This document shows, one piece after another, positions 8,242-55,965 of a stretch of 64,000 bases of DNA. The notes beneath the pieces are model-generated. The model had not been told where the DNA came from, did no database searches, and saw only the letters and a program-made list of their open reading frames with translations. Numbering within the stretch: the stretch's first letter is position 1; each line of letters opens with the position of its first letter. Source of the DNA: Synechococcus sp. PCC 7502. Its GTDB lineage: Bacteria; Cyanobacteriota; Cyanobacteriia; Pseudanabaenales; Pseudanabaenaceae. Made by a program: the position numbers and the translations under genes. The stretch is from the NCBI RefSeq assembly GCF_000317085.1, contig NC_019702.1, positions 3,192,394 to 3,256,393 of the forward strand, given 5' to 3'.

Positions 8242-8802
8242 ATGCCACTAACTATTGAATGCCAATCTCGCTCCGATCAAACAAATCCCCGTGCTATTCG
8301 CCGTGGGGGTAGAGTTCCTGCCACTATCTATGGACATAAAGGAGCAGAGTCAACAGCCGTTACTGTTAATACTAAAGATGCCATTACCCTCCTGCGTCAA
8401 GCTGTAGTCAATAACACTTTGATTGATGTCAATGTTACTGATGGTGATTTTAGTGGAATTACAATTCTTCGAGAAGTGCAATATCATCCCTATAAAAATG
8501 ATATTTATCACATTAGTTTCTTTTCGATCGCTTCTCAGTCCAAGATTGAAGTGAGTATTCCTGTGACCTTTGTGGGAGTTCCCGTTGGCGTTAAAGTTGG
8601 TGGTGGCTCTGTAGAAGTACTGATGAATGAAATTCAAGTATCCTGTCCGCCCACCGCAATTCCTGTATCCTTTGAAGTGGATATATCTAAACTAGATGTG
8701 GGACAAGGTTTGCATGTTAGCGACATTGTTTTACCCGAGGGCGTATCTGTCACCTCCGACGGAACACCACTTCTAATCACCATCGCTGGTGGACGCAAAT
8801 AA
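8242..8802 (+). CDS. rplY: 50S ribosomal protein L25/CTC family
   Basis: This 186-residue protein is of the long (CTC/TL5) form of ribosomal protein L25, which binds 5S rRNA. The N-terminal L25 domain (SDQTNPRAIRRGGRVPATIYG, residues about 9-30) is followed by the C-terminal beta domain (GVPVGVKVGGGSVEVLMNEI; LPEGVSVTSDGTPLLITI). I use the ATG at 8242 rather than the TTG at 8233, since family members begin close to this Met. It follows purA by 53 bases and may be co-transcribed with it. Confidence 0.9.
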   Translation: MPLTIECQSRSDQTNPRAIRRGGRVPATIYGHKGAESTAVTVNTKDAITLLRQAVVNNTLIDVNVTDGDFSGITILREVQYHPYKNDIYHISFFSIASQSKIEVSIPVTFVGVPVGVKVGGGSVEVLMNEIQVSCPPTAIPVSFEVDISKLDVGQGLHVSDIVLPEGVSVTSDGTPLLITIAGGRK

Positions 8803-8814
8803 ATCAGGTAAATA

Positions 8815-9435
8815 TCACTTCTTTTTAGTTACAGCCCTTGATTCAACGATAAATTCGGGAATTTGGCTTAACTCCTCATCCTCAAGACAGTATTGTTCAC
8901 ACACTAAACTCAGGCGCAGAGTCTCACTTTTAACCGCATTGACGGAGTGAGTTAGATGCCCCTGAAAGTGCAGAAGTGTATTGACTTGGGGATAAATTTT
9001 GGCAACTTGGCGTTTGCGGCGGGAACCGCATCCGTGGGAATCACTCAGAATTAACTCTCCTCCTTCCAGATTCGGTGGGATATTTACATACAGAACGCTT
9101 ACTGTTTCTGGTGGTTCAATGGTTTTGCAATAGGAACGAAGGCTACGATCGATGTGAGGATCGACTCTGGAACCAGATTTTAATTGTAAAGGATTGAGGT
9201 AAAAGGCATTACAGTGCGGCATTAGAGCTAACTTCACATATTCCTTAAAAAACGGAAATTTAGTTACCATTTGACCGATATGCGATCGCTTAAATACCAC
9301 AGAGAAGCCCTTGGTATTTATAAAGTCTCGATTTAAGTTATTGGTAGTAAAGAGAGAACTGGCTAGAATCTCCCCTTGCAGATTACTTAAATATTCTGGA
9401 GTAAAAATGTTGCTAACGGTGGAATAGTATTTCAT
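8815..9435 (-). CDS. 2-oxoglutarate/Fe(II) oxygenase family protein
   Basis: This 206-residue protein resembles the prolyl-4-hydroxylase-like 2OG-Fe(II) oxygenases. The iron ligands are recognisable as HID in SRVDPHIDRSLRSY (about residue 93) and a distal His in LLHFQGHLTHSVNAV (about 160). The 2-oxoglutarate-binding Arg follows in ETLRLSLVCEQ. GGELILSD between them is typical of the jelly-roll core. The substrate is unknown. It converges on rplY with only 12 bases between the stop codons. The following intergenic region 9436-9720 shows no gene. Confidence 0.75.
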   Translation of the reverse strand: MKYYSTVSNIFTPEYLSNLQGEILASSLFTTNNLNRDFINTKGFSVVFKRSHIGQMVTKFPFFKEYVKLALMPHCNAFYLNPLQLKSGSRVDPHIDRSLRSYCKTIEPPETVSVLYVNIPPNLEGGELILSDSHGCGSRRKRQVAKIYPQVNTLLHFQGHLTHSVNAVKSETLRLSLVCEQYCLEDEELSQIPEFIVESRAVTKKK

Positions 9436-9720
9436 TCACACCCAAACTTTTTCAGCATAGCGCAGGTATTTAACTACTTATTAATCAAGAATCGTCTTAA
9501 AGCTTTTAACGAAGTTAGGCAAATTTCTAGTTAGGCAGATTTTTACAGATGGGATAGCCTAAATTTTTCAAAATCAGAGAAGGAGCTAAAGACTGTCCTT
9601 GTTTCGTCCTTGCTCCCTCTATGGTTCACCCTCACATCTGATGAATTTAGCCTAGAACTGCTGAAATATCAATCCCTTGATCAAAATTAATAGCTAATTA
9701 ATCAGTTAATTAATCTTTAC

Positions 9721-12543
9721 CTATGATTGCTGGGGCTGCTTTTTAGCGAAAAACCACCGAATAAAGAGCTTTTCACCCTCAATCCACAGAAAGACTAATG
9801 CACATATCCCCAAGCAAGCTCCTAGCTCTGGCAAAGATAGAGGTTCTGTACCGAAGAAGTCACTAATGGGCTGAATATAGAGTAATGCTAACTGTAGTAG
9901 GGCGGTTACGACTACAGAACCAAGGAGAAAAGGGTTAGAGAAGAAGTTCATTTCTATAAGTAATCGATTATCAGAACGAACGGCAAGGGCGTGAACTAAT
10001 TGAGCCAGACAGAGAGTAGTGAACACTATAGTCTTCCAATGATCTCGCCAAGTGGAGTCAGGATTGTTATAGGCAAACTCCATTAACCCAATGGTCAAAA
10101 TTCCAAATACAATGCCAATCCGAATAATATAAGAACCAAGTCCTCGATCAAAAATACTTTCCTTGGGGCTAAATGGCGGTCTTTCCATAATGTCTGGTTC
10201 AGGCGGTTCTACAGCCAAAGCCAAGGCGGGTAGTCCATCAGTGACTAAATTCATCCACAAAATTTGCAAAGGAATTAAAGGGACAGTGGGCAGTCCAAGG
10301 GCAGGAGCAGCAGCAATTGTGATCACCTCACCGATATTACTACCAAGAATATATTTTATAAATCGGCGAATATTGGTATAAACTACCCTACCTTCTTCGG
10401 TGGCGGCAACAATAGTGGCAAAGTTATCATCAAGGAGTACCATGTCGCTAGCTTCTTTAGAGACATCCGTGCCTGTAATTCCCATAGCAATGCCAATATT
10501 TGCCTGTTTGAGGGCAGGAGCATCATTAACCCCATCACCTGTCATAGCGACAAATTCTCCATTAGCTTGTAATGCCCTAACTATGCGAAGTTTATGTTCT
10601 GGGGCAACTCGGGCATAAACGCTGGTACGAGAGGCAATGGTCATGAGTTCAGAGTCAGACATTTTTTCAATTTCGGTACCAGTAATCACGGCTTGATTGG
10701 GTTCAGAAATACCTAAATCTAAAGCGATCGCCCGCGCAGTTAATTGATGATCGCCAGTAATCATAACCGTACGGATGCCAGCATGTTTGCAAGTATTTAC
10801 AGCTTCTGCCACTTCTAATCTTGGTGCATCACGCATTCCTACTAACCCTAACCACACTAGATTTTGTTCTGAAGCTTCTAGGTCATATTGATTAGGTAGA
10901 TGCTCTAAGGTATTGGTAGCAAATCCTAAAACTCGAATTCCCTTACTAGCAAGCAGATTATTTTGCTCTAAAATTTGACTACGTTGAGCGGGAGTAATAG
11001 GCTTAAATTCATGGTTGATTTGAATGCGATCACAGCATCCCAAGACTAACTCAGGCGAGCCTTTAGTAAAGACTAGATATGAATTATCCTTTTGACAAAC
11101 TACACTCATGCGCTTGCGCTCCGAGGAGAAGGGAATTTCTGCAATTCGAGGAAACTTAACATTTAAGACAGCAGATTCAAGACTAGCCTTAGCAGCGAGG
11201 GTAATTAATGCCCCTTCCGTAGGATCACCAATAATTGACCATTCCCCGTCATGATTTTTTTGCAGATGCGAATCATTACACAAGGTACAAGCAATTAGGA
11301 TTGCATTAACCTCATAGTCTTCTACGGGATTAAATAATTGTTGGTCGGTGTTAAGAAATTTCCCCTCTGGTTCATAACCTTTACCAGTGACTTGGGTGAT
11401 GGTTAATGCAGTATAGATGGTCTCAACCACCATTTTATTTTGGGTGAGGGTGCCAGTTTTATCGGAGCAAATCGTAGTTACAGAACCTAGGGTTTCCACG
11501 GCTTGGAGCTTACGAATTAGGGCATTACGCTTCACCATACGCTGAGTTCCTAGTGCCAAGGTTACGGTTACAACTGCCATTAACCCTTCAGGTACCACTG
11601 CCACTGCCATACTCAAAGAAGTATTTAACAAATTTTCAAATACATCTTTGGCAAATAGAACTTCACCAAATTTACTAAAGTCGGGCAGAATACCAATGAG
11701 ATTTTGTAAGATGCCACTCTGTAGTAAGCCCACAAAAATAACTAAAGTTACTAAAACTAAAGAGCTACTAACCAGAATATTACCCAGCTTATCCATGCGT
11801 TGCTGTAGAGGCGTTGGCTCACTTTCCACATTTTGGATCATGGAGGCAATTTTACCCAACTCTGTTTCCATGCCGATCTCAGTCACCAGTAAAGTACCAC
11901 GTCCTTGGATTACCTCTGTTCCTTGGAAAACAAAGTTATGGCGATCGCCCAAGGGTTCATTAATCGGCAAGACTAAATTGGCATCCTTATCCACAGCATT
12001 TGCCTCCCCTGTCAGGGCGGATTCGCGAATTTTTAAGTTTACTGATTCTAGTAGGCGTCCATCGGCAGAAACCTGTACTCCTGCTTCTAAAAACACAATA
12101 TCCCCAGGTACTAGATCAAGGGATGAAATTTCTTGAATATTGCCATTTCTAAGCACTCTGGCATTGGGAGAAGACAGCTTTTTCAGGGCTGATAGCTCCT
12201 TTTCCGCTTTACTTTCTTGAGCAAAACCTAAAATGCCATTTAAAAATACAATGACAAAAATAGCGATCGCATCTTTAGGAAATTCACTTTTGCGCCAATC
12301 TAAAATACCTGAAATTACTGCTACCACCATCAGCATTACCAGCATAATATTGGTAAATTGATCGATAAAGATTTGGAAGTTAGTTCTCCCGACTTTACTA
12401 ATAATTTCATTACGACCATACTGGGCTTGACGCTCCTGGACGGTGGAGATCGCTAAGCCTAAAGTTTGATCTACTGCCAAAAGTTCTATTGCTTCTGTGG
12501 ATGAAATGTTATGCCAAGCGGTTTCCCCAGAAATCATGAGCAT
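9721..12543 (-). CDS. pacL: P-type Ca2+-transporting ATPase (type II)
   Basis: This 940-residue SERCA/PMCA-type cation pump most likely exports Ca2+ across the plasma membrane. It has the cation ATPase N-terminal domain ([18 protein letters not shown]), the actuator TGES-like SALTGEA, the Ca2+-site helix [18 protein letters not shown], the phosphorylated Asp361 in [26 protein letters not shown] in the P domain, and the C-terminal membrane domain with [22 protein letters not shown]. About ten membrane helices are expected. Length matches PacL-type pumps. The gene stands alone, divergent from the succinate-semialdehyde dehydrogenase gene. Confidence 0.92.
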
Positions 12544-26892: not shown

Positions 26893-29800
26893 CTACCAAG
26901 GACTACCAACTATAGTAAATCCTGCCCAATAGAAAGGATGGGATAAATCTCGGTTAATTGTAACTAGGTTACTGGGCAAGTTAATTGGGGTACCCCTTAG
27001 ACTTCTAATAGCACCATCTTTAAAGGTGATTTCTTTACGCAGCATAGCTAATTGTGCCTGCCTTAAGCCTTCAGCTTTGATTGTGACCTCAGGACGGTTC
27101 ATCTGTCGATAAAACTCACTCATTAAAGACAGTGTACCCTCATCACTGACCTGCCATAAACTTGCTAAGACTGATTTTACTCCAGACTGGAATGCCAGCC
27201 CGGCAAAACCTAATTGATCTGTTTGATCGCCAGCCGCAGTTTTACAAGCACTTAAAACTAGAAGCTCTACGTCTTTCCAGCCTAAATTACGAATTTGCTG
27301 AGGTCTGAGTTGCTCATCTCCCCAAAGCTGAATATAGGAGTCACCACCAGAGGTAAATTCGGCATGGGTTGCAAGGTGAATAATACCGTAGGGGGTTTGA
27401 TTACGCTGTGAGGTTAAATTTTCAAGACTAAAGTTTTGATTTAAAAATGAAACCCCATTCCATTCGCGACTCACAACTTTTACTTCTAAAGGTACAGCAG
27501 GCAAAGCTTTCAAGTTGGGATTACGAAACTCCGAGGCACCCATAACTAATGCCTGAACTTTGCGTAAATTGCGATAGCGGGTATCAACTAAACTCAAACC
27601 TGGAATTAAACCAAGACTATACTTTTCTACCATAAATTTTTTGCCATCATGAAAAGCTGCCACAGGGCGATCGCGCATTCCTTCAGGCATTTCAAACAAC
27701 ACCGTATCTATCTGCTGTTTCTCTAATTCGCTATCTAGGGGAGCTACTAACCATTGATAGAGCTTCTGAGCAGGTTTTAGGTAATCTTGAGGATTATTTC
27801 TGCCAATTGGCACAGAAGCAACTTCTAGGGACAAGTTATCAGCTTGATCAATGACTTGCTTACGATTAATAGGTAAAGACTTAACAATTTTGCCCTTAGA
27901 TGTGGAGAGAATCAAGACTAGGCGATCGCCCCCTGGGGTAAATTTAACTGTAATAATTGCTGGTTTTTTGCCAGTTTCTCGTTCTAAATCCTGAAGTATT
28001 TCTTCATTAGTAGATCGCAGAAAGTCTTGGGTAGGAAGAGAAAGAGTAACAACTGTTTTAGGTGTTTCCTCAATGGGAGGGCGAGATTCAAAAGGTACGG
28101 GAGTTGGGGTCGGTGTTGGGATGGGGGTTGGTGTTGGAGTAGGTACGGGAGTGGGTGTAGGCGTTGGGGTCGGTGTAGGTAAAGGCGTGGGAGTTCCACC
28201 AACTCCAGTAAAGGCAAAAATGAAAGTAGCAGGTGTTCCAGTAATTTGATTACCAATACCAGCACTATTTACCCCTGAAGATAAGCCTAGGGAATAAACT
28301 TCTGCTCCTACAGATGTAAGAGCAGTTCCCGCATTTGCCAGACTAGGTGTTGCCCCGTAAAAAATATTAAATACTTGACTCTTGCCTGCCGCCAGATTGC
28401 CAAAGCCAAAGGTAAAGGCTGAACCTTGATCTAGGGGACCATTATTCACAAAATCTCGATTTAGAGTAGAAGGGGTAATTGGTGAGTTGGTTGCTAGGGG
28501 ATTAACATTACCGAAGCCATTATTGCTGGAATAAATGACATTTGTAGCTTTTTCTCGTCCTTGTACAGTTACATATTCTCTAAATTCTGTAGGGGGGATA
28601 TCCCAGTCTTGGGTACGATTGTAGCGAATATCGTTAATGGTAGCAGCACTGGTATTAGTGATAGTAACTTGGTTCTTAAATAAAGCGGTAGTTTCTGGTG
28701 CGGGAGCATAGGTTTGGGTAACTTTCAGATTGGGTAAAGTACTGAGTACAGTTGTAGTTGACACAGATGTGGGCGTGGAACTCCAATTAGTGATTTTTAA
28801 ATTACCAGGATTAGGATTAGCAGGAGAAGCTCCACCCGCAATACCATTCCCAGAAACACCCCAACCTTCACATAAGCAACCGGGAGCAAGGGCATCTCCC
28901 ACTCCTTGAAATAGAAGTCCCACTCCTCCAGCATCGGTGATTGGATTTAAGTCACCTGTACCACGAATCCCAAGACTGATTTTACCTGTGGTGATTACAG
29001 CCCCAAGGGTGGGAATTAAAATCTCCCCATTGGTACTTGAGAGATTGATATTACCCGCAGCTAGCCACTCTGTTGGATTAGCTCCTAGGCTACCTGTATC
29101 AATTTTGGTGGCTGTAATATTACCAAAGGCAGTAATGGTAACAGAGCCGCCCAAGCTACCTGTTGAACCTTTAGTATTCAAACTACCTAAATTTATGCCA
29201 CCCTTAGATGCCGTAAGAGTAATATTGCCGCCCGGACTAGTTCTGGTAGTATCGATATTGCTAGTGGTGATATTGCCTGCGGTAATACCTAAGTTTGCAC
29301 CCCATGTGGAGATATTTCCAGTATTAGCTGAATTATCAGCCGTAAGATTGACTACTCCACCATTACCTTTTTGGGCGATCGTCGTAATGTTCCCCACGGA
29401 TAGATTATTAGCTTTTACCGTTACACTGCCCGCATTACCCGAAGTAGCAGTAAATCGAGTCCCAGCCGTGGCAGAAGTATTAGTTGTAATATCACGAGCA
29501 GTAACGTTCCCTGCTGCCATTAGCAAGATATTACCCCCATTGCCACTAGTGGCATTACGGTCAGAAATAGCTTCAGATTTGGTATTGAGATTACCACTGA
29601 CGGTAATATTGCCAGTACTGGTAATTAGGGAAATATTGCCACCATTTTGGGTGTTAGCATCAATTCCAGTAAAATTGACCCGTGATGCCGCATTAATATC
29701 ACCACCAATTACAATATCACCAACGGCATTAACGCTAATATCCCCTGCCTGTTGGATTGCTCCAGAGAATAGGGCCCCCCCAATATTGACATCACTACCC

Positions 29801-32800
29801 GATGTAATATTGATTTTGCCCCCTAGATTACTAGGACTGCTAAAGGTACCTGCTAGGATAACTTCTGAATTAGTAAGAATTGAACCAGTAATATTCACCG
29901 CTTTACCAGCATCAATAGTTACATTCCCCGCATCATTACTGGCAACAGTACTAACCACACCTTCGGTTGAAGTTGCTGAAGCAGAAGCGGCAAAGGAGCC
30001 AGCATTAATAACTCCCACATTCACATTATTACCAGCAGTTAGATTTACATCGCCACCTTTTTGAGTAATGGCTGTACCTGAACTTACACTCAATGCCGAA
30101 GAAGTATTAATAATATCGGTAATGGCTATATCCTGAGCAGCTTTGAGAGTAACCTTACCTCCTCCTCCTATGGAGTTTGCCTCAATATTGAGAGCAGTAA
30201 TTGAACCATTTGTACTGGTTGCAGTAATATCACCAGCTTTATCTTCAGGATTAGCAATAGGGTAGGACTCTAAATTATTAGCGATCGCAATATCATTTAA
30301 GGCAGTTAATGAGATTTTACCTAAGTTCAATTCATCGGGATAAGAACTAATACTATTCAAAGCGATTTTGCCATTAGTACTATTGGCAGTAACATCCGCT
30401 CCTTTAAGGTTGACGGCTGTTATATCCCCAAAAGCGTTAAGGACAATATCGCCTCCAATAGTGACGGGTATGCCGTGGGCAAAGAGGTTTGAGACTGAAA
30501 TTTTACCGTTGGTACTAGAAATTTTAATGTCTGCGCCAATATCACTAGTAACCTCAGAAACAGTGGATATATTGCCAGCGATCGCCACATCAGACTTAGC
30601 AGTTAAATCAACTGTTCCCCCACTATCATTTGTTCTCCAAGTATCAATGCTATTAACGGAAATACCACCATTGGAGCTAGAGAAATTAACCAGACCACCT
30701 GTGGTCACCAGACTACCCGTGGAAATATCTCCTGTAGCTGTAAAGTTCAGGTTGCCTCCCCTGAAGCTAACCCTTGAAGAATTAATATTGCCTGTGGCGA
30801 TCGCTCCTGTGGAAGTAATATCAACATTCCCTGCGTTGAGAGAACCCAGAATCCCAATACTGGAAGAATTTAAATCACCACTAGTAAAATTACCTGAACT
30901 AGAAATGAAAATATTGCCTGCATTTTGAGCAACTAAACTTGACTGCGAAGAGGTATTTATACTGCCTGATATGCTTGGCACCCCTGGAACTGTTAGTGTG
31001 CCGATATTGATAGATTTTCCAGTGAGAGTTACATCTCCACCATTGCCTGACTGACCAGATTGGGCAAAAGAAAGGGATAAAACTCCCAACCCCACATTAA
31101 TATTGCCATTTAAGGCTTGAAATGTAATTTTGCCAGCATTACTAGCATTGCCTATAAAAGTTGCCGATGCCGATGTGACATCCTGCAGAATACTAATGTT
31201 GCCATTGGTAGTATTAAGGTTAATATCACCGCCTATACCTGTATTACCCTGTGCTACTGCGGAAGTAGAAGATACACGTCTAGCTGAAATATTGCCCGTA
31301 GCATCAACTTGAATCTTGGCACCGTTGCCAGTATTACCTAGTCCCGCACCGTTACTAATTACGGATAACGTAGCAATATCTCGGGTACTAATGTTATTAC
31401 CCTTAAGGGTGATGTTGTTACCGTCACCTGTGGTACCTGATGCTCCTTTAATTTCCGAGTTACTTGTAACATCCTGAACACTTATATTTCCAGTAGTAGA
31501 AAGCAGAATTGCACCTGCTTTTTTAGTGGTGCCGTTACTTTGAACTACAGAACCAGAACGTACATTAGTGGCACTAATATTACCAGTGGTAGAGTTAACA
31601 CTAATATTGCCGCCATTACCTGCTATGCCATTTCCGTTAACAAAGGCATCGGTACTAATCCGATCAGTGACAGCAATATTTTTACTGGCATTAATTGTAA
31701 TGTTACCGCCGTTGCCTGTATTCCCAGTATTTACCCTAGCTCCCGCATCAATGATTGCTGCCGTAATTCCGCCATTAAGTGAGGATAGAGTAATATCTCC
31801 AGCATTGGCAGTGGTAAAACTAGTGGTATCGATCGCCCCTGAAGCAATATTATCCTGAGCCAAGACTTTAATAGCCCCAGATATAGTTCCAGTAGTAGTT
31901 GTAGTCAGAATATTTCCAGTTGTAACGCTACCACGGGAATCAATGACCACTGATCCACCATTCCCAGTTGCAGGTCTGGTATCGATATTACCCGTTTGAA
32001 TTTTGCCCGCTAGGGTTGGATTGGGGTTGTATTGGTTAGTTAAAACTACGTCGCCATTAGGGACAGCGATAGTCACATTACCAATGGTGATATTGGCACT
32101 GCTTGGCAAGAGTGTATCTGCGGCGATTGGAGGCTTAATCCCTGCTCTAATATCTAAGGTGGGCTTAATACTGCCATTAATACTAACAGTACTCACGCCA
32201 TCGGAAAGTCCAAAGGTTTCAGCAATAAAACTGGAAGTATCGGTACCAGTAATTATAATATTCCCCGGAATAGTCACCTGCCCACCCGCCAGAATATGTA
32301 AAGATGCCCCCGTATAAGAGGCTAAGCTGACATCTCCATTGGATTTTATGACTGGATCATAGGGACTGAAAAGATTACCTAAGCTGCCATCTAATTGCTC
32401 AATCTTGAAATTACCGCCAATAGAGTAATGAGCATCCCCATTGATCGTATTAGCAGACCTTAGGATCATGTCTGTACCAGAAAATAAGCCACTGGCAGCA
32501 TTATTCAAAGCAAAAACATCTATGCCTTGGTTACCTTGTATAGATAACTTAGCTCCTGCATTAGCGATAAAGGCAGTTGTGGCACTGTCTCTAATTCTGA
32601 CTGTATTTCCTGCGAGTAAGTTCAGGTTTTGTGATGTTTGGAGTTGAGAATTGACTAGCGTTAAATTATTAGCGGCACTGAGGGTACTTGAACCTGTATT
32701 AATGTTTTTAGCGATCGCATCTCCAACTGTGACTGGAAGTTTAGCGGCAGTTAAAATTACATCACCATTATTATTTACACTGAGACCCGTAGCTTTTTCG

Positions 32801-33573
32801 AGGTTGGCACCAGTTAATAACTGCGGCAGTGTTGGAATAGATAGTCCCCAAGGGTTAATGCCCAAGTCTGGATTAGGTTGAAATTCCAAACCAATGACAT
32901 CCCCAACTTGGCTAAGTCTTACTAGGTTTTTACCGGGGACAGCACTGAGGGTAATGCTACCATTGGGGGCAGATAGATTACCTGTACTGATCACAGTTCC
33001 ACCCAAGAAATTAATATCTTTGCCTGAGTTAACCGCTAGATCAGCCGCACTAATAATTGCCCCTGGGTGAGACATGGTAAAAGCAAAGCTATTGGGATTG
33101 CCAACTAAAGTTGCATAATTATTAGTCCCGATCGCATTAAAGAAATTATTTCCAAATCCAATCCCATTGGCAGTAGTAGCCGTAAAAGCCCCAGCTAAGT
33201 TCAAACTGGCATTATTGCCAAAGATAATTCCCGCAGGATTCATTAAAAATAAATTGGAGTTACCCCCACTTACTTGGATTAATCCATTAATAACTGAGGC
33301 ATCCCCACCGACAACCCGACCTAAAATATTTTGAATGCTAGGGTTAGAAAGAAAGTTGGCAATTTGATTAGTATTTAAGCCAAATTGTTGAAAGCTGTGA
33401 AAAAGATTGGTGCGATCGCCAGATAGTTGACCACCCGAAATATCAATGCGATTACCAATACTATTTACAGCAGTATTTGTGCCATCATTAGCAGGAATAA
33501 TAGACTGACTCCAACTAGGATAGGCAATGCTAATAAAAGGTAAAATAGCTAATAGTAGGGATGGTCTCGCCAT
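26893..33573 (-). CDS. secreted haemagglutinin-type beta-helix protein with CHAT domain
   Basis: This 2226-residue protein is exported. Residues 1-23 are a signal peptide ending SWSQ. Residues about 24-260 are a TPS/haemagglutination-activity domain with the hallmark NPAGIIFG. A very long right-handed beta-helix region follows, made of degenerate short repeats (GNI-, ITAT-, GGNI- type). A Pro-Thr linker lies at about 1793-1830. The C-terminal CHAT (caspase-like) domain has the catalytic His2070 in HLATHAEF and Cys2110 in VLSACKTAAGD, followed by GFAGLAFQSGVKSVLASLWQ. The export partner (TpsB, Omp85-type) is not in the window. It is probably a large two-partner-secreted surface protein whose C-terminal protease domain could process itself or other surface proteins. 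Confidence 0.85.
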   Translation of the reverse strand: MARPSLLLAILPFISIAYPSWSQSIIPANDGTNTAVNSIGNRIDISGGQLSGDRTNLFHSFQQFGLNTNQIANFLSNPSIQNILGRVVGGDASVINGLIQVSGGNSNLFLMNPAGIIFGNNASLNLAGAFTATTANGIGFGNNFFNAIGTNNYATLVGNPNSFAFTMSHPGAIISAADLAVNSGKDINFLGGTVISTGNLSAPNGSITLSAVPGKNLVRLSQVGDVIGLEFQPNPDLGINPWGLSIPTLPQLLTGANLEKATGLSVNNNGDVILTAAKLPVTVGDAIAKNINTGSSTLSAANNLTLVNSQLQTSQNLNLLAGNTVRIRDSATTAFIANAGAKLSIQGNQGIDVFALNNAASGLFSGTDMILRSANTINGDAHYSIGGNFKIEQLDGSLGNLFSPYDPVIKSNGDVSLASYTGASLHILAGGQVTIPGNIIITGTDTSSFIAETFGLSDGVSTVSINGSIKPTLDIRAGIKPPIAADTLLPSSANITIGNVTIAVPNGDVVLTNQYNPNPTLAGKIQTGNIDTRPATGNGGSVVIDSRGSVTTGNILTTTTTGTISGAIKVLAQDNIASGAIDTTSFTTANAGDITLSSLNGGITAAIIDAGARVNTGNTGNGGNITINASKNIAVTDRISTDAFVNGNGIAGNGGNISVNSTTGNISATNVRSGSVVQSNGTTKKAGAILLSTTGNISVQDVTSNSEIKGASGTTGDGNNITLKGNNISTRDIATLSVISNGAGLGNTGNGAKIQVDATGNISARRVSSTSAVAQGNTGIGGDINLNTTNGNISILQDVTSASATFIGNASNAGKITFQALNGNINVGLGVLSLSFAQSGQSGNGGDVTLTGKSINIGTLTVPGVPSISGSINTSSQSSLVAQNAGNIFISSSGNFTSGDLNSSSIGILGSLNAGNVDITSTGAIATGNINSSRVSFRGGNLNFTATGDISTGSLVTTGGLVNFSSSNGGISVNSIDTWRTNDSGGTVDLTAKSDVAIAGNISTVSEVTSDIGADIKISSTNGKISVSNLFAHGIPVTIGGDIVLNAFGDITAVNLKGADVTANSTNGKIALNSISSYPDELNLGKISLTALNDIAIANNLESYPIANPEDKAGDITATSTNGSITALNIEANSIGGGGKVTLKAAQDIAITDIINTSSALSVSSGTAITQKGGDVNLTAGNNVNVGVINAGSFAASASATSTEGVVSTVASNDAGNVTIDAGKAVNITGSILTNSEVILAGTFSSPSNLGGKINITSGSDVNIGGALFSGAIQQAGDISVNAVGDIVIGGDINAASRVNFTGIDANTQNGGNISLITSTGNITVSGNLNTKSEAISDRNATSGNGGNILLMAAGNVTARDITTNTSATAGTRFTATSGNAGSVTVKANNLSVGNITTIAQKGNGGVVNLTADNSANTGNISTWGANLGITAGNITTSNIDTTRTSPGGNITLTASKGGINLGSLNTKGSTGSLGGSVTITAFGNITATKIDTGSLGANPTEWLAAGNINLSSTNGEILIPTLGAVITTGKISLGIRGTGDLNPITDAGGVGLLFQGVGDALAPGCLCEGWGVSGNGIAGGASPANPNPGNLKITNWSSTPTSVSTTTVLSTLPNLKVTQTYAPAPETTALFKNQVTITNTSAATINDIRYNRTQDWDIPPTEFREYVTVQGREKATNVIYSSNNGFGNVNPLATNSPITPSTLNRDFVNNGPLDQGSAFTFGFGNLAAGKSQVFNIFYGATPSLANAGTALTSVGAEVYSLGLSSGVNSAGIGNQITGTPATFIFAFTGVGGTPTPLPTPTPTPTPTPVPTPTPTPIPTPTPTPVPFESRPPIEETPKTVVTLSLPTQDFLRSTNEEILQDLERETGKKPAIITVKFTPGGDRLVLILSTSKGKIVKSLPINRKQVIDQADNLSLEVASVPIGRNNPQDYLKPAQKLYQWLVAPLDSELEKQQIDTVLFEMPEGMRDRPVAAFHDGKKFMVEKYSLGLIPGLSLVDTRYRNLRKVQALVMGASEFRNPNLKALPAVPLEVKVVSREWNGVSFLNQNFSLENLTSQRNQTPYGIIHLATHAEFTSGGDSYIQLWGDEQLRPQQIRNLGWKDVELLVLSACKTAAGDQTDQLGFAGLAFQSGVKSVLASLWQVSDEGTLSLMSEFYRQMNRPEVTIKAEGLRQAQLAMLRKEITFKDGAIRSLRGTPINLPSNLVTINRDLSHPFYWAGFTIVGSPW

Positions 33574-49260: not shown

Positions 49261-49735
49261 GAAGAGTAGGCGTAGGTGGTTGCGGAGACTTAAAAAATCT
49301 CTGAGGAAAGTCCGGGCTTCCACAGAATCAAACTGCTGGATAATACCCAGTGTGAGCGATCGCGAGGAAAGTGCCACAGAAAAATACCGCCTTGATCATA
49401 ATTTATTAAGTATTCAGGATACTAAACCTATTGCTAAATATTTAAATCAGATTATGCTAAAGGTAAGGGTGCAAAGGTGTGTTAAGAGCGCACCAGCAAA
49501 GTCGAGAGGCTTTGGCTCGGTAAACCCCAGTTGGAAGCAAGGCGAGAGGAATAAGCTATAACTGATTCTGGTCGGCTTTTCCGTTGTTAACTCCAGAGTT
49601 AGCGTGAGCCGCTTGAGGTGGTTGGTAACAGCCATCCTAGATAGATAACTACCTGTGAAAAGTTAAACTACAGTTCAAACTATAGTAAATTCAAACATTT
49701 CATAAACAGAACCCGGCTTATGTCCTGCTCTTCTT
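49261..49735 (+). ncRNA. rnpB: RNase P RNA (type A)
   Basis: The catalytic RNA of RNase P, which cuts the 5' leaders of tRNA precursors. The conserved core is clear: GAGGAAAGTCCGGGC at 49303 near the 5' side, GAGGAAAGTGCCACAGAAA at 49363, GTAAACCCCAGTTGGAAGCA at 49520, and ACAGAACCCGGCTTA at 49707. Helix P1 closes the molecule: GAAGAGTAGG (49261-49270) pairs with CCTGCTCTTC (49724-49733), with one G-U. The open frames that cross this region are accidental. TATAGAT at 49250 could be the -10. Confidence 0.95.
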
Positions 49736-52130: not shown

Positions 52131-52176
52131 TTAAGAGTATTAACGACTAATTATAAAGCTTGGTAACCTATAACTA

Positions 52177-52335
52177 ATGAAGGCAATTTCGATGTTAGGA
52201 ACTTCATCCAATGCGGGTAAAAGTTGGATAGTAAATGCCTTGGGAGCTTGGCTGCACCGACAGGGAGTCAATGTAGCCCTATTATTGATCATCCCAGCAA
52301 TAACTAGATTTTTAGTTGCGAATATAATGATGTAA
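52177..52335 (+). pseudogene. duplicate of the cobQ 5' end
   Basis: The first 34 codons match the start of the intact cobQ at 54457: 88 of 101 bases by my hand count and 30 of 34 residues, including the P-loop [10 protein letters not shown]. The differences are mostly silent. After codon 34 the similarity stops and the frame runs 18 more codons to a TAA. It cannot make a functional cobyric acid synthase. Bases just before the ATG also resemble those before cobQ (GGTAA then AT-rich). It marks the left border of the TPR/ATPase insertion. Confidence 0.85.
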
Positions 52336-52351: not shown

Positions 52352-53218
52352 ATGGCTTTTCTCTATTCACGACTAATAGCAACGTATGTTCACTTTCGTA
52401 GAGCAATATTTTCTATTTTCGGGAACAAAGGTGATGCCCTCACTAAATATATTCGAGCCATTGATCTTTCCCTTGACTACTTAGATAGTGGACTTACAAA
52501 ATATGATTCCAAAGACTATGAAGGTGCGATTACCGATTTAAACCAAGCTATCCAAATATGCTTAAATCATCGGGATGCAAAAAATGAATTAGAGGATTAT
52601 GAAAGTGAAATTGCTAGTTACGACAAAAGCAAACATATCTTTGTAGCCGCTTATACTCTTCGTGGAAATGCCAATCATATTCTACAAAACTATGAAGGGG
52701 CGATCTCTGACTTCAATCAAGCAATGGTACTTATAAAATCTACAGAGACAGAGTATCTTCAGTCATATCTACCAATTTTGCATGGATTTGAGGCAAACAG
52801 TCGCAGTCGGTTAGGGGCATATTATGTATCTGAAGGTAGATGGCATGAGGGATTAGAACAACTTCAGGCAAGTCTTGATTACTATCGCCAAACTGATAAC
52901 CTAGAGCGGCGTGCTGATGTACTGGCTCAAATTGCCCGTGTCCAACTCTTATTAGGTGACTGGGACAAAGCCCGAATGCTCTATCGTGATGCGTTGCGGC
53001 TCTATGTTCATCTAAATAAAAAAGAAGGGATCGCTAACTGTCATCTTGCCCTTGGGAGAATGATGCTACGTTTAAATTACATCACCGAGGCACAAAAGGA
53101 ACTAGAAACCGCTTGTAATCTTTTTAGGGAATGTGGGCTTAGCCAACGTCAAGCCGAAACTAAAGAAGTCTTAGAAGTTGTTTCTCAATTTAAATCTAAA
53201 CAAGCAATAAAGCTATGA
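52352..53218 (+). CDS. TPR-repeat protein of the cobQ-linked cassette
   Basis: This 288-residue helical protein has at least five TPR-like repeats: LDSGLTKYDSKDYEGAITDL at about 46, AYTLRGNANHILQNYEGAIS at about 102, LGAYYVSEGRWHEGLEQLQA at about 156, AQIARVQLLLGDWDKARMLY at about 196, and LALGRMMLRLNYITEAQKEL at about 235. TPR domains bind proteins or peptides. There is no catalytic motif and no signal peptide. The stop overlaps the ATG of the ATPase by four bases (ATGA), so the pair is made together. Only with the ATPase does it suggest a two-part sensing or defence-type module; this is inference. Confidence 0.7.
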   Translation: MAFLYSRLIATYVHFRRAIFSIFGNKGDALTKYIRAIDLSLDYLDSGLTKYDSKDYEGAITDLNQAIQICLNHRDAKNELEDYESEIASYDKSKHIFVAAYTLRGNANHILQNYEGAISDFNQAMVLIKSTETEYLQSYLPILHGFEANSRSRLGAYYVSEGRWHEGLEQLQASLDYYRQTDNLERRADVLAQIARVQLLLGDWDKARMLYRDALRLYVHLNKKEGIANCHLALGRMMLRLNYITEAQKELETACNLFRECGLSQRQAETKEVLEVVSQFKSKQAIKL

Positions 53219-54444
53219 GTGAAATTGATGACCTATTTAATCAAAGCGATCGTATTTTTAAAGAATGGAACCTCAAGCAGATCCCTTTTACGGAGAGTGC
53301 ATCTAGTCTGGAATCTAACATTGATGCTGTATTTACTGGTAGAACAGAAGAGCTAAAACTTGTAATTCCTTTGTTGAGAGGGAAAGAACGCAAGCGCATC
53401 CTTGTATATGGATGGACAGGAATCGGTAAATCTGCATTTATACTAGAAATCCTCAACTTTTTGAAACGCACCGATCAAAAAGCCATAGTTGGTTATATCA
53501 CCCTCCAACCTGATATGGAATTAGGTGAAGCAGCATTTATTGCTCTTGCCCGTGAAATGCCCGAAGACGAATGGGCGCAACGACAACTGAATGAACTAAC
53601 AGGGTTGGGTAATTTGATTCGTAGCCGTAAAAGTGAAATAGGTGGCAATTTAGGTATTCAAGCCAAGACATCAGAGGAAACCCTAAATGTCCAACCTAGT
53701 AAATATCCTGCCTTAGCTTTTGAAGAACTACTCAACCGTGCCTTAAAAAAGTACGATCGCGTGATTATTGGCATTGACGATCTCGATAAACAAGACCCCG
53801 CCCGTGTACGTCAACTATTAGAAAATGCCCAAGGAATGCTTAAAGGTAATGCTTGGTTCTTTCTTAGCGGTCATCCCAGTGGACTTACCCGTGATTTAGT
53901 TAACCGTGAACGAGGACTATTTGACCTCAGCATCGAATTAAAACCCTTTGATGATGACACGACCTACAAAATGCTCAAAAAGTATCTTGCCAGTGCCAGA
54001 ATTAAAGAAGTAGATGAAAATAATGAAGCCGAAGCTCTCCATCCTTTTACCCCTGAAACCGCGCGATCGCTCTGTGAAAAATCCTCTGGTATTCCCCGTT
54101 GGTTCAATCGCAATGCTAGTTATATTCTCCTTCGAGCTGCGAACTTAGGAGCGAAAAAAATTACTTCTAATGTTCTCCAATCTGGGTTTGAATACGCCCG
54201 TCAGCAACTAGGTGGGAAAGATCAACTAACTGCCGAAGAATACTATCTCCTCAACTTAATTCTTGCTAAAGGCATTCTTTCCGATGAAACTATCACCCTT
54301 GAAGAACTAAAAAAAATTGGGGCTAGCGAATTTAATGAAATCTTACCGATCTTAAATGGCTTAATTCAAAAAGATATCGCCCGTCTACTTCCTGATGAAC
54401 GCTTTTATAGTGTTACGACTAATCCTATCCTTTCAGAAGATTAA
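53215..54444 (+). CDS. AAA/STAND-like P-loop ATPase of the cobQ-linked cassette
   Basis: This 409-residue ATPase has a typical Orc/STAND-like entry (FTGRTEELKLVIPLLRG, about 40-56), Walker A GWTGIGKS at 66-73, Walker B RVIIGIDDLDKQD at 182-194, a sensor-1-like FFLSGHP at 215-221 and a sensor-2-like SGIPRWFNRNA at about 291-301. The last 70 residues look like a winged-helix domain (LTAEEYYLLNLILAKG; LEELKKIGASEFNEILPILNGLI). It has no HTH at the N terminus and no TIR, nuclease or protease domain. It could be the sensor/switch part of a conflict or signalling system with the TPR partner. The function is unknown. Confidence 0.7.
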   Translation: MSEIDDLFNQSDRIFKEWNLKQIPFTESASSLESNIDAVFTGRTEELKLVIPLLRGKERKRILVYGWTGIGKSAFILEILNFLKRTDQKAIVGYITLQPDMELGEAAFIALAREMPEDEWAQRQLNELTGLGNLIRSRKSEIGGNLGIQAKTSEETLNVQPSKYPALAFEELLNRALKKYDRVIIGIDDLDKQDPARVRQLLENAQGMLKGNAWFFLSGHPSGLTRDLVNRERGLFDLSIELKPFDDDTTYKMLKKYLASARIKEVDENNEAEALHPFTPETARSLCEKSSGIPRWFNRNASYILLRAANLGAKKITSNVLQSGFEYARQQLGGKDQLTAEEYYLLNLILAKGILSDETITLEELKKIGASEFNEILPILNGLIQKDIARLLPDERFYSVTTNPILSED

Positions 54445-54456
54445 GGTAATTATTTA

Positions 54457-55965
54457 ATGAAGGCAATTTCGGTGTTAGGAACCTCATCTAATGCGGGTAA
54501 AAGTTGGCTAGTTACGGCTTTAGGGGCTTGGTTATACCGACAGGGAGTCAATGTAGCTCCGTTTAAGTCTCAAAATATGTCTAATAACTCCTACGTTACC
54601 CTTGAAGGTGGAGAAATTGGTCGTGCTCAAGCTGTTCAGGCGATCGCCTGTGGAATGCGTCCGATCGTCGAGATGAATCCAATCTTACTGAAACCTTCAG
54701 CAGTAGGCACTTCTCAATTAGTAATTTTAGGAACAGCTAAACAGCATATTGCTGCCATTGACTACTATCAGCACATTGAAACCCTATGGCAAACTGTGTG
54801 TGATTGTTTAGAGTTTTGGCGCGATCGCTGTGATGTTTTGTTACTAGAAGGGGCAGGTAGTCCTGTAGAACTAAATTTAATGCACCGAGATTTAGTTAAT
54901 TTGCGACCAATTCAGTATCTAAATGGACGATGGCTATTGGTGGGAGATATTGAGAAAGGAGGAGTATTTGCTCAAATTATTGGTACCCATCAACTCATGC
55001 CCAAGCATTCTCAAGCGCAAGGGTTGGGTTTGATCGTGAATAAATTTCGGGGTGATCTGCGCCTATTTGCGGATGCGGACAAGTATTTTAAGGACTATAT
55101 TCCCGATACTCCTTATCTAGGAGTGCTGCCCTATTGCTCAAATCTGCAACCAGAAAGTGAAGATAGTCTATGTGCTGAAGCGGAGACTAAGGGAAAGGGA
55201 GCAAAAATTGCATGGGTGCGGTTTCCCCATCTCTCTAATTCTCAGGACTCTCAGCCGTGGCAGTTAGACTTTGGCATAGAAACTTGTTGGGTGCAGACTA
55301 TAGATGACTTAAGGGATGCCAAGATCATCATTCTTCCCGGCAGTAAAAATACCATAGCCGATTTGGAATGGTTGAAGAGTAATGGTTTAGATCGGGCAAT
55401 TATCAAGGCAGCTAGTCAAGGCGTTCCCATAGTTGGAATTTGTGGTGGTTATCAAATGTTAGGTATTAGTTTGGGCGATCGCCACGGGGTAGCAGGTGCA
55501 GCAGGTATGGTAGAGGGTTTAGGGCTTTTACCAGTAACTACAGAATTTTTACCGATTAAACAAGTGCGACAGGTGCAAGCAAGTTTTCAAGCAGATACTT
55601 GGATGGCTTACGAAATTCACATGGGACATACTCAGTTAATTCCTCAGTTAGTTCATGATCGCAATGATCTAGATATACAGCCATTAGTAAAGATTCAGCA
55701 CCAAAATCAATCGGAATATAAAGAATATAAAGGGGAAGGATGGCGATCGCTCAGTTTACCCAGAGTATGGGGAACTTACTTACATGGCTTATTTGAATCT
55801 AGTCAAGTTAGGCAAGCATTAATTCAGATGGCGGATATTTCTGACTATCAAGTTTCCGATCTAAATTGGCAGACTCACCAGCAAACTCTGTATAACCAAA
55901 TGGCTGATCTACTAGAAATTCATCTCGATCTTAATCCCATCCGTAGATACCTTAGTTCACCCTAG
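54457..55965 (+). CDS. cobQ: cobyric acid synthase
   Basis: This 502-residue CobQ amidates cobyrinic acid side chains in cobalamin synthesis, using ATP and glutamine. The N-terminal ATPase domain begins with [10 protein letters not shown], followed by FKSQNMSNNSYVT. The C-terminal class I glutamine amidotransferase domain has the nucleophile in GICGGYQMLG at about residue 330 and His in WGTYLHGLFES. The gene begins 12 bases after the ATPase stop, so its native leader has been replaced or displaced by the cassette and it may now be read from the cassette's promoter. The 3' end overlaps the convergent YdeP-like gene by 14 bases. Confidence 0.95.
   Translation: MKAISVLGTSSNAGKSWLVTALGAWLYRQGVNVAPFKSQNMSNNSYVTLEGGEIGRAQAVQAIACGMRPIVEMNPILLKPSAVGTSQLVILGTAKQHIAAIDYYQHIETLWQTVCDCLEFWRDRCDVLLLEGAGSPVELNLMHRDLVNLRPIQYLNGRWLLVGDIEKGGVFAQIIGTHQLMPKHSQAQGLGLIVNKFRGDLRLFADADKYFKDYIPDTPYLGVLPYCSNLQPESEDSLCAEAETKGKGAKIAWVRFPHLSNSQDSQPWQLDFGIETCWVQTIDDLRDAKIIILPGSKNTIADLEWLKSNGLDRAIIKAASQGVPIVGICGGYQMLGISLGDRHGVAGAAGMVEGLGLLPVTTEFLPIKQVRQVQASFQADTWMAYEIHMGHTQLIPQLVHDRNDLDIQPLVKIQHQNQSEYKEYKGEGWRSLSLPRVWGTYLHGLFESSQVRQALIQMADISDYQVSDLNWQTHQQTLYNQMADLLEIHLDLNPIRRYLSSP

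Follow-up and report, generated by a model that had tools for sequence, protein, structure and literature searches.

A conserved and mobile pair of a TPR protein and an AAA+ ATPase in cyanobacteria, a candidate conflict-type signaling module

The window analyzed here, a stretch of 64,000 nucleotides of Synechococcus sp. PCC 7502, carries two overlapping genes, for a TPR protein and an ATPase, that form a conserved and mobile pair which is undescribed within a literature coverage that was not exhaustive. The two proteins are obligately paired and diverge together, the TPR partner shares its scaffolds with CHAT and NB-ARC proteins, and the nucleotide motifs of the ATPase are intact. We read the pair, in a judgment evenly poised for and against, as a mobile two-gene signaling module of conflict type, combining an exchangeable sensor or scaffold, a TPR socket and a dedicated ATPase switch. 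Its features are as follows.

52,352-53,218, plus strand: TPR partner protein of 288 aa (open reading frame; Pfam matches to TPR families only)
52,352-52,789, plus strand: N-terminal part of the partner, variable between homologues and made up here of ordinary TPR motifs (residues 1-33 of low pLDDT)
52,790-53,215, plus strand: conserved C-terminal TPR module "A2" of about 140 aa, three TPR hairpins and a capping helix (from the A2 alignment, the C-terminal position and pLDDT)
53,215-53,218, plus strand: ATGA stop/start overlap, with an overlap of exactly -4 nt in 33 of 48 homologous pairs
53,215-54,444, plus strand: AAA+ ATPase of 409 aa with an ORC/Cdc6-STAND fold and an acidic C-terminal winged-helix domain (from Pfam, alignment, model, structure matches and charge)

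Both open reading frames and their four-base overlap are as the first-pass annotation had described them. The absence of a catalytic motif from the TPR protein, also noted there, agrees with Pfam, which gives generic TPR families alone, with no catalytic family and no CHAT domain; the window's own partner has neither NB-ARC nor the N-terminal domain A3 described below. For the ATPase, Pfam gives weak matches to ATPase_2 and AAA_16, of which ATPase_2 lies above its own cut-off, and NCBIfam a weak ExeA-like match in the lid region. The ORC1/Cdc6 family model TIGR02928 scores 23.7 bits and does not reach its cut-off of 181.3. No specific family was given for either protein by Pfam, NCBIfam or PADLOC, the PADLOC 2023 curated defense models yielding only matches at E 0.01-0.02.

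One profile was made for the ATPase (A1) and another for the region of about 140 aa that is conserved at the C terminus of the upstream proteins (A2, the socket), and the fetched loci were searched with both, on either strand. A gene bearing A2 stands directly upstream, on the same strand, in 47 of the 48 distinct intact homologous ATPases, which rules out a chance overlap of unrelated genes and answers the earlier question of whether both proteins always occur together. In the exception, genome G349, the two genes lie two megabases apart, and the same gene for a 499-aa transposase is found beside each half, where the partner should stand (L139 near 9904; L125 near 8330-9829). This suggests that an insertion sequence split the unit and that a rearrangement then moved the halves apart. 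All intact pairs consist of separate, overlapping genes, and no natural fusion of the two was seen among them. When the A2 profile was searched in 388 genomes, the matches showed a sharp gap: those with E below about 1e-28 almost all adjoin an ATPase, and the next ones, from E 4e-20 upward, are generic TPR proteins as judged by score and length. A few A2 proteins (L138, L140 and L141) have no adjoining ATPase.

The end of A2 lies 1-17 aa from the C terminus of the partner in all 53 cases. Pairwise distances between A2 modules follow those between the ATPases closely (r = 0.90 over 35 pairs, the largest of 2000 permutations giving 0.27), whereas the first 120 aa of the partner reach only r = 0.41 in the subset with long N termini, at a mean identity of only 21%; such correlations are inflated by relatedness, and the telling point is the contrast between A2 and the N-terminal part. 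Judging from these alignments, the part that travels with the ATPase is the C-terminal TPR module alone. The socket is modeled with very high confidence (pLDDT mostly 95-98) as three TPR hairpins and a capping helix, and it resembles the TPR domains of LGN and kinesin light chain.

The regions N-terminal to the socket are far more diverse. The partners range from 128 to 1399 aa, and their N-terminal parts are unrelated or swapped: plain TPR, HEAT, NB-ARC, PNP-NB-ARC, CHAT-NB-ARC or an unnamed domain, A3. Examples from Pfam are the following.

L031 partner: CHAT, an AAA_16/NB-ARC-like NTPase and TPR
L034 partner: NB-ARC
L030 partner: HEAT
L039 partner: PNP_UDP_1 and NB-ARC

The conflict or signaling flavor proposed at first pass finds support in these homologues: NB-ARC, PNP and CHAT, which their partners carry, are domains that conflict systems typically have. 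A3, an N-terminal domain of about 120 aa without a Pfam name in the proteins tested, is common to many cyanobacterial partners. It was searched in 242 genomes, and 20 regions were inspected, picked from matches without a strong socket match. The socket-less A3 proteins with a complete C terminus in these regions end in a CHAT-type pattern (SCHG ... LSACETG); the frames that do not are those cut by the region end and one short frame (L242:281-1972). Pfam matched CHAT in all three socket-less A3 proteins submitted. A3-TPR proteins thus end in CHAT or in the socket, and one A3-TPR scaffold appears, from sequence comparison, to bear either a CHAT protease or a socket with a separately encoded ATPase. 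CHAT and the socket were found in one protein only in L031 among the partners examined. An A3-TPR-CHAT gene lies downstream of the pair, on the same strand, in G056, and a second A3-TPR protein follows the ATPase in three Moorena loci; A3 may bind homotypically. Cyanobacterial TPR-CHAT caspase-like proteins have the A3 domain and the TPR array in common with many partners, but end in a CHAT protease, where the pair has a TPR socket and an ATPase encoded apart. In addition, two clusters of at least four tandem A3-TPR genes, most of them CHAT-ending, were seen in L247 (G021:C2:126000-145000) and L248 (G167:C1:1-20000). Two Chloroflexota partners (L030:9195-10004 and L036:4555-5979) have in common an N-terminal motif, GGDVVGRDKI or RGDMVGRDKI, which Pfam leaves unnamed. 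One cyanobacterium has a three-gene unit, in which a gene for a KAP/AAA_14-like ATPase (L033:6320-7711) overlaps with the beginning of the TPR partner gene.

These features could be parts of a simple mechanism. The variable N-terminal part of the partner would recognize a cue, and the socket would hold the dedicated AAA+ ATPase, whose nucleotide state, through assembly or remodeling by the acidic winged-helix end, would be the switch or the output. The ATPase may thereby fill the place that the CHAT protease has in the sister proteins; in the NB-ARC fusions, it may instead act alongside an effector at the N terminus. We infer physical docking of the ATPase on the socket and ATP-driven switching, and a role in conflict or cell fate, possibly anti-phage; a defense role is plausible. 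More tentatively, and with the balance leaning against it, the pair could be a hitherto undescribed module that provides the output in prokaryotic innate immunity or in programmed cell death. In that case an ATPase would do the work of the CHAT caspase-like protease, attached to the same sensor scaffolds as well as to NB-ARC proteins of NLR-like type. If this were true, cyanobacterial sensors, and some of Chloroflexota, would swap a caspase-like protease for an AAA+ ATPase via a small TPR plug. This would give a simple modular rule for conflict-type signaling, with a defined and testable two-protein interface, and a handle on the many uncharacterized TPR proteins of multicellular cyanobacteria.

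The sharing of scaffolds with TPR-CHAT proteins is no proof of immunity, because such proteins can have cellular roles in cyanobacteria: HetF, a CHAT-TPR protein, is a component of the divisome with roles in division and heterocyst formation (PMC8406250). A cellular role for the pair is thus a serious rival, in which the same switch would serve, like HetF, as a non-defense accessory module of division, differentiation or stress response; we consider it somewhat unlikely, though by no means negligible. Beyond this precedent, it draws on the genomic neighborhoods. The 113 proteins flanking pair loci within 5 kb are mainly housekeeping, with sporadic matches to methyltransferases or PDC (counted without a matched background), and no clustering with known defense genes was seen among them, so that closeness to such genes, one of the checks named at first pass, finds no support. 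Moreover, 12 bases separate the end of the ATPase gene from cobQ in the window, and the ATPase gene of one Chloroflexota locus overlaps the one for glycyl-tRNA synthetase. The patchy presence of the pair, its decay and its disruption by an insertion sequence argue the other way, as does the swapping among NB-ARC, PNP and CHAT scaffolds, which is typical of conflict systems.

This patchiness can be quantified. The ATPase is present in 34 of 388 genomes of the cyanobacterial class (19 of 160 genera), mostly in one copy each, and in only two of 301 genomes of Chloroflexota; several copies are broken. In one of the loci in that phylum (L030:9195-14250, Anaerolineae), the pair is flanked by recO and by a fused gene for glycyl-tRNA synthetase, which it overlaps by four bases. 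The window's own family contains three distant ATPase clades and a sampled genome of the same genus lacks the pair, which points to horizontal gain and loss as the probable history on sequence grounds; paralogy is a possible source of the three clades. We also considered spread on plasmids or phages and rejected it, as no relatives were found in the plasmid, phage and viral collections PLSDB, INPHARED and IMG/VR. A fixed locus was likewise discarded: in relatives, cobQ and pgpH stand apart without the pair, and the pair of G005 lies elsewhere. Flanking genes differ between loci, in line with the variable places that the first-pass annotation had asked about, and its proposal of a linked NTPase-plus-repeat unit holds, given the conserved pairing and the patchy presence at variable sites. 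Separate homologues at fixed core loci, or a known housekeeping family, had been named there as evidence to the contrary; the homologues are instead paired and patchy, and match no known housekeeping family.

The place of the pair in the window bears what looks like a scar of recombination or insertion.

52,175-52,277, plus strand: displaced 103-nt copy of the cobQ start (34 codons), 87% identical to the intact one (first copy of direct repeat D1; translation)
54,455-54,557, plus strand: second copy of direct repeat D1, the intact cobQ start
54,457-55,965, plus strand: intact cobQ, starting 12 bases after the ATPase stop

The pair is thus flanked by two starts of cobQ, one broken and one intact. 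The simplest reading is that recombination at cobQ brought in the pair; a tandem duplication followed by an insertion would look the same. In the genome of the same genus, a divergent lipA-like gene precedes cobQ and pgpH is on another contig.

If the pair does act in conflict, it could be a canonical anti-phage system of STAND or Avs type whose sensor repeats have moved to a second gene, an explanation that we regard as improbable. The motifs listed at first pass (Walker A, Walker B, sensor-like motifs and a winged-helix-like end) are confirmed: the sequence has GWTGIGKS as Walker A, IIGIDDLD as Walker B, FFLSGHP as a sensor-1-like stretch and an invariant GxPR, and in an AlphaFold2 model (mean pLDDT 84.5) the chain folds into an AAA+ core and a lid, with a winged helix at the C terminus and a poorly predicted hairpin insert at 132-160. 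The G-x4-GKS/T and IDDxDK patterns occur in all 27 aligned rows, corresponding to a STAND-type Walker A and an hhhhDD Walker B. Residues that never vary are, among others, the P-loop, D188/D189 and G292-x-P294-R295, the last of these giving the STAND GxP motif before the winged helix, followed by an invariant arginine. Along with this Walker B and the GxP, the NB-ARC partners and structural matches to resistosomes and CED-4/Apaf-1 favor a STAND system. However, sensor-1 in the main ATPase clade is TGH and so lacks the arginine of the T/S-x-R type found in STAND proteins, and in a divergent clade it is TGR. In structure the ATPase comes closest to ORC/Cdc6 proteins of archaea, with Z 17.8 to 1w5t over 314 residues and 17.7 to 2v1u over 330 residues; archaeal Walker ATPases (2qen, 2fna), BrxC, plant resistosomes and TnsC follow at Z 13-16, and Foldseek agrees. 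PADLOC gave nothing convincing, and there is no fused effector and no defense-island context. Compared with STAND NTPases, Avs and NB-ARC-TPR proteins, the pair has in common a P-loop NTPase with a winged helix and TPR repeats, some partners carrying NB-ARC, but its ATPase is free of a fused effector and its repeats are on a second polypeptide, encoded by a separate overlapping gene, where STAND NTPases have them fused in one chain. Hence, of the AAA/STAND-like label given at first pass, the ORC/Cdc6-STAND-type fold stands as modeled and a clear membership of STAND does not.

ORC1/Cdc6 proteins and the archaeal ATPases of ATPase_2 type (2qen, 2fna) have the same AAA+ and winged-helix fold over most of the chain (Z 14.5-17.8) and differ by an identity of 10-20%, the acidic winged helix of the pair and its obligate TPR partner. 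This winged helix is acidic throughout the 48 homologues, with net charges from -2 to -11, so that DNA binding by it is doubtful, and a DNA-acting winged-helix effector, one sense of the first-pass proposal that this end could be the effector, is disfavored. We also dismissed the idea that a basic socket complements the acidic winged helix in charge: the pI of the socket is 8.8 in the window, but its median across homologues is 6.4.

A housekeeping role in cyanobacteria, as a chaperone or assembly pair, is a slightly weaker candidate than the STAND system. It would account for the single copy where present and for the core-gene neighbors, but the pair is missing from about 90% of the genomes of the class, including the sampled same-genus relative, and it has variable sites and decayed copies. 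Weakest of all and very improbable is a transposition or recombination ATPase related to TnsC, TniB or ExeA with a TPR helper: TnsC structures match at Z 13-15 and the NCBIfam lid match is ExeA-like, but these scores are no better than those for ORC or NLR proteins, the winged helix is uniformly acidic, and the unit includes no transposase, since the only insertion sequence found interrupts a pair.

The signaling module that we favor has further parallels in the MoxR-vWA ternary and iSTAND conflict systems (PMC7159879, PMC8195603), in which exchangeable domains are associated with an AAA+ core that sets a threshold, and which are enriched in multicellular cyanobacteria and Chloroflexi. The pair is similar in its AAA+ core, exchangeable domains and host groups, but differs from these systems in having neither vWA nor MoxR and in the intact motifs of its ATPase. 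The sharing of one scaffold by socket and CHAT is reminiscent of the logic of shared adaptors that PMC8195603 proposes for other conflict systems. Within the sections of these two papers that were covered, and in a literature coverage that is not exhaustive, the socket-ATPase pair is not described.

The neighbors of the pair in the window include an RNase P RNA, a 7TM-HD protein and cobQ, and what we take to be an acsF-like gene and a molybdopterin-type oxidoreductase. The RNase P RNA, of bacterial class A, lies at 49,263-49,735 on the plus strand (235.8 bits), between the acsF-like and 7TM-HD genes. A scan for promoters and terminators found sites no more numerous than in shuffled sequences. 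Elsewhere in the window, at 26,893-33,573 on the minus strand, a protein of 2226 aa, apparently destined for export, combines an N-terminal two-partner-secretion (TPS) domain with a C-terminal CHAT domain.
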